The notes under the pieces were generated by a model, which had not been told where the DNA came from, did no database searches, and was given only the letters and a program-made list of their open reading frames with translations. Of a stretch of DNA of 64,000 bases, positions 44,437 to 50,475 are shown one piece after another. This DNA comes from Myxococcales bacterium. Lineage in GTDB: Bacteria; Myxococcota_A; Polyangia; Polyangiales; Houyiibacteriaceae. Location of the stretch: positions 496,001 through 560,000 of the forward strand of contig JAOTYL010000002.1 in NCBI GenBank assembly GCA_029861865.1, in the 5' to 3' direction. Both the position numbers and the translations under genes were made by a program. The number at the start of each line of letters is the position of its first letter. Position 1 is the stretch's first letter.

Positions 44437-45690
44437 TTAGCGCGCTGTTGCCCCGCGCCGAGCCGCCTTGCGACGCTTCTTGCTGGAAGGCAGTTTGCTC
44501 GTCGGCTTGCCGTTCGAGCCAGAGTGGCGCGACTTCGGTAGCAGCGCGCTTCGAAGCTCGTCCGCTCGGTCGGTGCGCTCCCAGGTGAACGTCTTTTCGG
44601 TCCGGCCGAAATGCCCATAGGCCGCAGTAGGTGTGTAGATCGGCCGCAACAGATCTAGCGTCTCGACGATCGCACGTGGCCGGAAGTCGAACATCTTGGA
44701 GACAGCCTTGGCGATTTTTGTGTCGTCCACGCGTCCGGTACCGAATGTCGTCACGTAGATACCCATGGGCTTGGCAACGCCGATCGCATACGCCACCTGT
44801 ACCTCACACCGAGACGCGACTTTCGAGGCGACGATGTTCTTGGCGACGTAGCGCGCAAAATACGCTGCGCTCCGGTCCACCTTAGAGGGATCCTTGCCGC
44901 TAAAGGCACCCCCGCCATGCCGGCCCATGCCGCCGTAGGTGTCGACGATGATCTTGCGCCCGGTCAGACCAGCATCCCCGTACGGGCCACCCACCACGAA
45001 TCGTCCGGTTGGGTTGACGTGAAACTTGGTCGACTTGTCGATCATTTTCGTGGGAAGCGTGGGCTTGATGACCTCTTCGATGATCGCCTCTCTCAACGCT
45101 CGATATTTCACTTCCTCGGCATGCTGGGTCGAGACGACGATCGCATCGAACCGGACCGGCCGGCCGTCTTGGTACTCCACGGTGACCTGAGTCTTTCCGT
45201 CGGGACGGAGCCAGGGAAGCACCCCACGCTTGCGAACTTGGGCTAGGCGCCGCGCAAGCTTGTGAGAGAGGTCGATCGGCATCGGCATGAGCTGACGCGT
45301 TTCGTCGACGGCATAGCCGAACATCAAACCTTGGTCCCCAGCCCCTTGCTCCTGACCTCTGGCCCGATCGACCCCTTGCGCAATGTCAGGCGATTGCCGC
45401 TCGACGGCCGTCAAGACACCGCATGTGGCGGCGTCAAAGCCCATCGAGGAGTCGGTATAGCCGATTCCAGCGATCGCTTTCCGAACGATCGCCGGGATAT
45501 CGATGGTGGCTTTTGCGGTGACCTCACCTCCGACGACCACGAAGCCGGTCTTGACCATCGTCTCGAGCGCGACGCGTGACCGTGTGTCTTGGCCTATGTA
45601 GGCATCGAGCAGGGAGTCGCTGATCTTATCGCAAATCTTGTCGGGATGGCCTTCCGTCACCGACTCGGAAGTAAACAGATAACCGCTCAT
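44437..45690 (-). CDS. metK: S-adenosylmethionine synthetase
   Basis: 417 residues. Forms S-adenosylmethionine from methionine and ATP. Motifs: [47 protein letters not shown], and YGHFGR near the end. A basic Ser/Lys tail of about 25 residues ([15 protein letters not shown]) extends the normal C-terminus. Only 48 bases separate its start from the preceding gene, too little for a SAM riboswitch. SAM use is represented nearby by the decarboxylase at 49.5 kb. Confidence 0.97.
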
Positions 45691-47860: not shown

Positions 47861-49468
47861 CTACTCGTGCGTGATGCGAGGAGGCTTACCTCTTACGATG
47901 CGTGTGTCGCCACGCCACTCTTCGCCCGCATGCGGGTAGTCGAGATTGTAATGTAGCCCACGACTCTCTTTGCGAGCCTCCGCGCAACGGATGATCAGCT
48001 CTGCAACGTCGGCAATGTTGCGGAGCTCCAACATATCGCGATTCACGAGGTGGGCCCAGTAGTACTCACGGATCTCTTCCTGAAGCATTGCAATGCGGCG
48101 GGCCGCTCTGCGCAAGCGCCGATCGGTGCGAACGATCCCTACATAGTTCCACATGAAGCGCCGGAGCTCGTCCCAGTTTTGGGTGACCACGACGGCTTCA
48201 TCGCTCGGGACGGCCTGGCCCACATCCCAGTCCGGAACCGCCTCGAACGCCTCGTCGATCTCAGAAAACCTCGCGCGCGCCGCGATAGCCGTACGGTGAC
48301 CATAGACGAGCCCTTCGAGCAGCGAGTTGGACGCGAGTCGATTCGCGCCGTGGAGGCCCGTGCAAGTCACCTCGCCCACGGCCCACAAGCCCCGCAGCGT
48401 CGTGTGGCCCTCGCCATCGACCACGACTCCACCGCACATGTAGTGCGCCGCAGGGACCACGGGGATCGGTGCACGGGTCATGTCGACGCCGTACTGAAGG
48501 CATCGTGCGTGAATGTTGGGGAACCGTTTGACTAGGTACGACGCTGGCTTGTGCGTCATGTCAAGATAAACACACTCTTCGCCCGTGCGTTTCATCTCAT
48601 AGTCGATAGCGCGGGCAACGACGTCGCGGGGTGCGAGATCCTTCATCTCGTGATGCGAAACCATGAAAGCAGTGCCGTCGCGCAAGCGAAGGATGCCTCC
48701 CTCCCCGCGCAGCGCCTCGCTGATCAAAAAACTCTTTGCCTTTGGGTGGAAAAGACACGTCGGGTGAAACTGAAAGAACTCCATGTTCGCGAGCTCGGCG
48801 CCGGCACGATACGCCATGGCCACACCGTCGCCCGTCGCGACATCGGGGTTGGAAGTATAAAGGTAGACCTTCCCGGCGCCCCCGGTCGCAATGATGGTCT
48901 CCTTGGCAAGGAACGTCTTAACATCGCCGGTGGTCTCGTCGAGGACGTAAGCGCCGACGACTCGAGTCGAACCATCGGGCGTTGGGGTCTGGACGAGGTC
49001 GATGGCCATGTGATCTTCGTAGATTTCGATATTGGGCGATGCGGCTGCTGCTTCGATGAGGACCCGCTGCACCTCTTCACCCGTGATGTCTCCTGCATGA
49101 ACGACGCGCCGTGCGCTGTGCCCGCCCTCGCGCGTCAGATCGAGCGACTTGCTTTGTCCGTCGCGGCTGAATTCAGCCCCGAGCTCCATGAGCTCCTGAA
49201 TCCGGCCCGGCCCGTCTTGAACCACCATTTCGACGATGTCCCGACGCGAGAGGCCACCACCCGTGTTGAGCGTGTCTTCTACATGCGCTTCGAACGAGTC
49301 GGCCGGATCGAGCACAGCCGCAATCCCACCTTGCGCCCAATTTGTGGCGGAATCGCTTCGGCTGCGCTTGGTCACCATCGTGACCTTGCGATGCAGCGCC
49401 GCCTCGAGCGCAAAACTCAAGCCCCCAACACCGCTACCTAGAACCAGATACTCACACTCGGTTCGCAT
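47861..49468 (-). CDS. nadB: L-aspartate oxidase
   Basis: 535 residues. Flavoprotein that makes iminoaspartate for NAD synthesis. FAD site LGSGVGGLSFALEAA; TNWAQGGIAAVL; HSARRVVHAGDITGEEV; FHPTCLF; AAHYMCGGVVVDGEGHT; GLHGANRLASNSLLEGLVYG; C-terminal LHYNLDYPH. This set separates NadB from succinate dehydrogenase flavoproteins. nadA and nadC are not in the window. Confidence 0.97.
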   Translation of the reverse strand: MRTECEYLVLGSGVGGLSFALEAALHRKVTMVTKRSRSDSATNWAQGGIAAVLDPADSFEAHVEDTLNTGGGLSRRDIVEMVVQDGPGRIQELMELGAEFSRDGQSKSLDLTREGGHSARRVVHAGDITGEEVQRVLIEAAAASPNIEIYEDHMAIDLVQTPTPDGSTRVVGAYVLDETTGDVKTFLAKETIIATGGAGKVYLYTSNPDVATGDGVAMAYRAGAELANMEFFQFHPTCLFHPKAKSFLISEALRGEGGILRLRDGTAFMVSHHEMKDLAPRDVVARAIDYEMKRTGEECVYLDMTHKPASYLVKRFPNIHARCLQYGVDMTRAPIPVVPAAHYMCGGVVVDGEGHTTLRGLWAVGEVTCTGLHGANRLASNSLLEGLVYGHRTAIAARARFSEIDEAFEAVPDWDVGQAVPSDEAVVVTQNWDELRRFMWNYVGIVRTDRRLRRAARRIAMLQEEIREYYWAHLVNRDMLELRNIADVAELIIRCAEARKESRGLHYNLDYPHAGEEWRGDTRIVRGKPPRITHE

Positions 49469-49524: not shown

Positions 49525-50475
49525 TTACAGTGGCAACTCGTAGGGAGGGCGAGGCCCACCCGGAGGAATGTAGTACTGGAGATAAGTCACGCGATAGCCC
49601 CCAAGGCTCCTGACTACGTGGTCACCCAACTGGTAACCGGCCAGCTTCAACTTGGGCTCGCCCTGGGGCAAAAACGCGACGACATCGAAAGCCCGAGGTT
49701 GGAAAAGCTCGACGATTGTCCCGACGAACCCAGTCAGATCGCTCCCGAAATCCCGGTTCGTCTCAAAGCTCGCGTAGCTCCCCATCTGTTCGGGGGTCAC
49801 GTGAAGCGTGTAGTATTCTTGGCCCCGAAGCGCATTGAGGGAATAACCCGCGGGGTCGAAGACATGTTCGGATGTGTCGAACCCCGGAAGCACACCATCG
49901 ATGCCGAGCCCAACCGCCAACGAACGATCCTCCGACAACTCGGCACTCGTGAACTGCGCTGCCACACGTTCATCGATGGCGTGCATCAGTATCTCGATGG
50001 TCGGATCAGACGTTTCAGGAACGAACGCACGAGTCGTGTGGAACATCTGTACGTAATGCCCATGCTCATCGCCAAACCGAAGCGCGCGACCCGGAACCAT
50101 GGCCTTCAGGCGTCTAGCATCCTCGCGGAACGTCGTCGGCTGGCGTTCGGGAAAATGCTCGTTCTTTCTCTCGTAGACCAGGAATGCGATCGAATCCGCG
50201 GAGATGGCCTCGAGCAATCGAGCTACCGCATCGACCAGAGTCGTCAAGCCACACGTGATCATCACGCAGTAATCATCGAAGACGAACAAGCTCGACTCGG
50301 AGAGGAGGTAGGCGTCGCAGTGGTCGTTGCGCATCACCGAGATGACGTCTGCCCCTGCCGCGCGCACCACATCTCGCCAAATGTCGTCCCCGAGGGACCG
50401 CAACGATGCCGAATCCGGCGTGACAACCAGCTCGAGCTTCTTCTCTGGGCCCTCGAAAAACGTCAGGGAGGACAT
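49525..50475 (-). CDS. speD: S-adenosylmethionine decarboxylase proenzyme, eukaryotic type
   Basis: 316 residues. Makes decarboxylated SAM, the aminopropyl donor for spermidine. It matches the eukaryotic-type proenzyme, not the short bacterial SpeD: FFEGPEKKLEL at the start, LLSESSLFVFDD with the self-cleavage site Glu60-Ser61 (pyruvoyl from Ser61), ITCGLTT with catalytic Cys75, and AGYSLNALRGQEYYTLHVTPE with Ser212 and His225 that drive processing, then SYASFETN. Start at ATG 50475. No spermidine synthase is nearby. A shifted substrate preference (ornithine or arginine) cannot be excluded. Confidence 0.92.
   Translation of the reverse strand: MSSLTFFEGPEKKLELVVTPDSASLRSLGDDIWRDVVRAAGADVISVMRNDHCDAYLLSESSLFVFDDYCVMITCGLTTLVDAVARLLEAISADSIAFLVYERKNEHFPERQPTTFREDARRLKAMVPGRALRFGDEHGHYVQMFHTTRAFVPETSDPTIEILMHAIDERVAAQFTSAELSEDRSLAVGLGIDGVLPGFDTSEHVFDPAGYSLNALRGQEYYTLHVTPEQMGSYASFETNRDFGSDLTGFVGTIVELFQPRAFDVVAFLPQGEPKLKLAGYQLGDHVVRSLGGYRVTYLQYYIPPGGPRPPYELPL

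Follow-up and report, generated by a model that had tools for sequence, protein, structure and literature searches.

The window, a 64,000-nucleotide stretch of DNA, lies on contig 8 (648 kb) of a 4.2-Mb host genome that is estimated to be 100% complete and whose closest named relatives are Myxococcales MAGs. Its minus strand carries a reading frame for a predicted eukaryotic-type (class 2) S-adenosylmethionine decarboxylase (AdoMetDC), which runs from an ATG at 50475 through a stop at 49525 and encodes 316 amino acids (N-terminal sequence MSSLTFFEGPEKK). The features of the locus are listed below with the evidence for each.

49525..50475, minus strand: class 2 (eukaryotic-type) S-adenosylmethionine decarboxylase proenzyme, 316 aa (ORF; PF01536, E = 6e-63; active-site map; AlphaFold/Foldseek)
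50293..50298, minus strand: codons of Glu60-Ser61, the predicted processing site that would yield the pyruvoyl group (aligned with human E67-S68)
47861..49468, minus strand: nadB-like FAD enzyme of the L-aspartate oxidase type (PF00890/PF02910 and conserved synteny)
44437..45690, minus strand: metK, S-adenosylmethionine synthetase, the presumed substrate source, downstream of the AdoMetDC gene (PF00438/PF02772/PF02773 and synteny)

The nadB-like gene follows the AdoMetDC gene at a distance of 56 bp and is context only, its product being without a known pathway role. Gene order is fixed across the Myxococcota genus (SLT transglycosylase, AdoMetDC, nadB-like, TPR protein, metK, FAD oxidoreductase), and the GC3 of the AdoMetDC gene equals that of its neighbors. 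Dozens of other genomes encode homologs with 91 to 42% identity, and the dN/dS ratio relative to the nearest homolog is 0.10 (0.07 for nadB and 0.07 for metK). The AdoMetDC gene is under purifying selection, and the range of its homologs together with this ratio places it far beyond chance. Two Myxococcales MAG chromosomes, CP070713 and CP070650 (L092 and L094), have a broken copy in the same gene order with seemingly shifted frames, probably through sequencing errors. Searches of phage, plasmid, and IMG/VR sequences found no relatives of the AdoMetDC.

The encoded protein matches the PF01536 SAM_decarbox profile over residues 6 to 301 (213.4 bits, E = 6.1e-63; curated cutoff, 22.2 bits) and human AMD1 over residues 3 to 272 in a search of PDB sequences (E = 1.5e-31), while PF02675, the profile of class 1 SpeD, is absent from its Pfam matches at E ≤ 1. 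Its score for TIGR00535, the NCBIfam adenosylmethionine decarboxylase equivalog, is 158.6 bits and falls below the cutoff of 233.15; by sequence, we regard it as a diverged homolog outside that equivalog. An AlphaFold model built with 37 bacterial homologs reached a pLDDT of 89.6 and a pTM of 0.90. In a Foldseek search, the model was closest to human AMD1 (1jl0; TM 0.88, rmsd 2.3 Å), followed by the T. brucei and potato AdoMetDCs and lastly by the class 1b enzyme of Thermotoga maritima (single-domain 1tlu; TMt 0.69, 119 aligned columns). As modeled, the protein has the duplicated two-domain class 2 fold. A 7-sequence AlphaFold model was poor (pLDDT 72; TM 0.40, rmsd 19) and was superseded by the 37-sequence model. 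The initial annotation had proposed a eukaryotic-type AdoMetDC in a bacterium, and the profile match and the likeness to human AMD1 in both fold and sequence bear it out. It had also named placement with ordinary bacterial SpeD as evidence against that proposal; without a PF02675 match, the protein is not an ordinary SpeD.

We aligned the AdoMetDC with human AMD1, using a reference sequence checked against PDB entries 1msv and 1jl0; the residue roles given here (catalytic or putrescine site) are those of AMD1. Glu60-Ser61, Cys75, Ser212, His225, and Glu229 align with human E67/S68, C82, S229, H243, and E247, and the motif FFEGPEK occupies residues 6 to 12. The coordinates, the residue numbers, every functional residue, and the FFEGPEK start in the initial annotation are correct. 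In human numbering, E8, E11, K12, E67, S68, C82, S229, H243, and E247 are identical in the two proteins, as are the putrescine-site residues E15, D174, T176, E178, and E256, and the SAM-contacting residues F7, F223, and E247 are retained. The enzyme shares with human AMD1 and the eukaryotic class 2 family (PF01536; PDB 1jl0 and 1msv) its length, two-domain fold, processing site, catalytic Cys/Ser/His/Glu, and most putrescine-site residues, but it has only about 28% identity to human AMD1, carries the substitutions K80I, S113E, E133D, and C226A, and sits on a bacterial branch apart from all sampled eukaryotes. Because human Lys80 and Ser113, which lie near the putrescine site, are replaced by Ile and Glu, activation by putrescine may differ. 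Every bacterial homolog examined has Ile, Leu, or Met at the position of human K80, and T. brucei has Ile there. Glu60-Ser61 is invariant among the 37 aligned bacterial homologs, and self-cleavage at this site is predicted to give a beta chain (residues 1 to 60) and a pyruvoyl alpha chain (residues 61 to 316).

Human Glu247 contacts SAM. At its position, every Elusimicrobia sequence aligned in the first set has Gln, and so do 24 of the 39 Bdellovibrionota sequences (loci L074-L090 and L114-L173).

Only one protein in the host genome matches PF01564, a soluble SpeE of 279 aa encoded on the same contig as the AdoMetDC, about 290 kb away. It scores above both equivalog cutoffs (TIGR00417, 286.7 versus 249.6; NF002010, 335.6 versus 260), and its nearest solved structures are spermidine synthases and aminopropyltransferases. 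The AdoMetDC gene had been described initially as near metK and without a spermidine synthase: metK is indeed nearby, and the absence of a synthase holds for the 64-kb window but not for the genome. Putrescine supply is represented by SpeA (TIGR01273, 749.6 versus a cutoff of 624.1), AguB (TIGR03381, 420.4 versus 410.3), and AguA (PF04371, E = 2.5e-95, full-length match), whose gene adjoins aguB; the AguA fragment, as read, is below its NCBIfam cutoffs. Judged by these matches, speA, aguA, and aguB form a complete arginine-to-putrescine route, and a single genome holds the AdoMetDC, the spermidine synthase, and the supply of putrescine. Class 1 SpeD (PF02675) has no match anywhere in the host genome, which also lacks agmatinase (PF00491) and a deoxyhypusine-synthase-like protein (PF01916), and no ornithine decarboxylase (ODC) or carboxynorspermidine decarboxylase (CASDC) was found in it. 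Its PF02784 matches were rejected as ODC or CASDC, being SpeA, LysA, and a LysA-like protein. SpeE requires decarboxylated SAM, for which the AdoMetDC gene is the sole candidate source in the genome.

We consider it highly probable that the AdoMetDC is a working class 2 enzyme that substitutes for class 1 SpeD in its Myxococcota lineage and plays the ordinary role in spermidine synthesis together with SpeE. We propose that the proenzyme cuts itself at Glu60/Ser61 and retains a pyruvoyl group on Ser61, which would decarboxylate SAM supplied by MetK. SpeA, AguA, and AguB would convert arginine to putrescine, onto which the soluble SpeE would move the aminopropyl group to yield spermidine. Points that count against this reading are the TIGR00535 score below the cutoff, the changed residues near the putrescine site, the lack of an adjacent speE at Myxococcota loci, and the report by Li et al. 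2019 of bacteria that have a functional class 2 AdoMetDC but no spermidine.

It is improbable that the enzyme acts on SAM mainly to feed aminopropyl transfer other than that of spermidine synthesis, a polyamine-independent role that has been put forward for genomes carrying membrane-SpdSyn fusions. Li et al. 2019, cited in PMC10407285, deals with such a role, and the best PF01564 match in two family relatives (G022 and G076) and one phylum relative (G203) is a membrane-fusion-type aminopropyltransferase of about 520 to 540 aa; the genome of the window, however, combines its lone, soluble SpeE with a complete putrescine route.

Very unlikely, too, is a neofunctionalized pyruvoyl decarboxylase that acts on L-ornithine or L-arginine and not on SAM, as the initial annotation had hinted. 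Many SpeD homologs have changed to ornithine or arginine activity (PMC10407285), and the host genome yielded no PLP ornithine decarboxylase, but the activities reported in PMC10407285 belong to class 1b homologs, which were looked for where speE is lacking or an additional speD occurs, and the alternative substrate is therefore not directly transferable to the window enzyme. Class 1b SpeD (Thermotoga maritima 1tlu/1vr7) and SpeDA/SpeDC have pyruvoyl chemistry in common with the AdoMetDC, part of whose fold resembles one class 1b subunit; class 1b SpeD, however, is about 120 aa long, against the 316 aa of a class 2 enzyme that is without a PF02675 match and whose genome encodes speE and no other AdoMetDC. 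In addition, speA, aguA, and aguB already provide putrescine, and the AMD1 contacts to SAM are kept.

The initial annotation considered such homologs uncommon in bacteria, an estimate that our counts do not support. PF01536 is found in 21 of 377 Myxococcota genomes, 19 of 295 Elusimicrobiota genomes, and 91 of 369 genomes in the phylum of a Bdellovibrionales MAG, or about one-quarter of the last phylum (the Elusimicrobiota and Bdellovibrionota labels are those of the MAGs used as sampling centers). Relatives were located in Myxococcota, in Elusimicrobia (including a complete chromosome, CP096137), in one Bdellovibrionales MAG, and in one MAG labeled Planctomycetota. The copy in this last MAG (L068, RFHU01000276.1) groups with Sandaracinaceae (Myxococcota) copies, and the contig is likely misbinned or mislabeled.

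Class 1 SpeD is present in 156 of the 377 Myxococcota genomes, and both classes occur together in one of the 21 Myxococcota genomes with class 2, compared with 8.7 expected (hypergeometric P = 1.5e−4, an indicative value given that the genomes are related). PF02675 was found in none of 15 class 2 genomes from the family of the host, and class 1 is absent from all 13 further class 2 genomes, mostly of Elusimicrobia. Bacterial class 2 AdoMetDC is common in three phyla, with class 1 nearly always missing alongside it. Among loci with enough downstream sequence, the gene that follows on the same strand is speE in 48 of 49 cases from Bdellovibrionota and in 26 of 26 from Elusimicrobia; pooled, the two groups have speE directly downstream at 74 of 75 informative loci, with certain genomes represented twice. 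None of 26 Myxococcota loci has speE beside the AdoMetDC gene.

The only sampled Myxococcota genome with both classes, G144 (L014 and L038), has its class 1 speD adjoining speE and also carries a fusion-sized aminopropyltransferase; it is a candidate natural case for a functional split between the classes. Elsewhere in Myxococcota, the class 2 homologs L019, L020, L021, and L022 are strongly diverged: L020 has E15A, D174F, E178Q, and E247D, and L021 and L022 have E8D and are missing the putrescine site. The best PF01564 match in the genomes of L020 and L019 is a fusion-type aminopropyltransferase of 518 to 542 aa (NF002956). These diverged copies possibly have a role outside spermidine synthesis.

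To place the gene, we built unrooted trees with FastTree and treekit in which eukaryotes were represented by five sequences: those of human, potato, and T. brucei, taken from the PDB, that of Arabidopsis, which was checked by a 387-bit match to potato 1mhm, and a putative yeast sequence. A single branch sets the eukaryotes apart from a deeply diverse bacterial side (99/95 in the careful tree; SH-aLRT of 96 in the wider set and 98 in the smaller set). When Bdellovibrionota are included, 11 of the 13 Myxococcota copies, among them that of the window, group together and join Elusimicrobiota inside the diversity of Bdellovibrionota, with several supports being modest. Because most Myxococcota and Elusimicrobiota copies fall among those of Bdellovibrionota, the gene of the window probably came from other bacteria, and the nearest donors of its lineage look bacterial in these trees. 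We suggest that it probably entered Myxococcota from Bdellovibrionota-like bacteria, where it is paired with an adjacent speE. A recent transfer from a eukaryote, or contamination of the assembly with foreign DNA, is scarcely credible: the AdoMetDC belongs to a eukaryotic sequence family, and PMC10407285 attributes bacterial class 2 genes to a eukaryotic source, but the gene lies on a 648-kb contig, in conserved gene order and with the GC3 of its neighbors, its closest relatives are all bacterial, and the sampled eukaryotes fall outside on one supported branch.

AU tests did not discriminate among attachments of the bacteria to eukaryotic lineages (P = 0.36 and 0.37 for two alternatives). We tentatively raise the idea, which we hold to be doubtful but with which the unrooted tree and its five eukaryotic sequences are compatible, that class 2 AdoMetDCs form an ancient family of bacteria, one that pairs with speE in Bdellovibrionota-like lineages, spread to Elusimicrobiota and Myxococcota, and passed from bacteria to eukaryotes.

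In earlier work by Li and colleagues, bacterial class 2 enzymes are reportedly functional and phylogenetically limited, and certain class 2 genomes are said to carry an MFS-SpdSyn fusion and to lack spermidine. Some members of that set reportedly occur with membrane-SpdSyn fusions, in contrast to the soluble SpeE of the window genome. PMC10407285 notes the presence of class 2 AdoMetDC in some bacteria and, citing Li et al. 2019 (Biochem J 476:2579), states that phylogeny points to a eukaryotic source. The finding of Li et al. 2019 is of the same kind as ours, and class 2 AdoMetDC in bacteria is already published; what is new here is how broad the family is, that it pairs with speE, and that the copy from the window falls among bacteria, points of which a limited text search found no published account.

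On its own, the AdoMetDC gene has little significance, as it would be a routine spermidine enzyme, if one of an unusual type. Taken together, however, the many bacterial class 2 copies, which outside Myxococcota mostly accompany speE and which almost never share a genome with class 1, offer a test of whether the "eukaryotic invention" is really eukaryotic. If true, a bacterial origin of class 2 AdoMetDC would reverse the published inference of a eukaryotic invention lent to bacteria. The origin of the class also matters for models that have bacterial partners supplying polyamine enzymes to eukaryotes.
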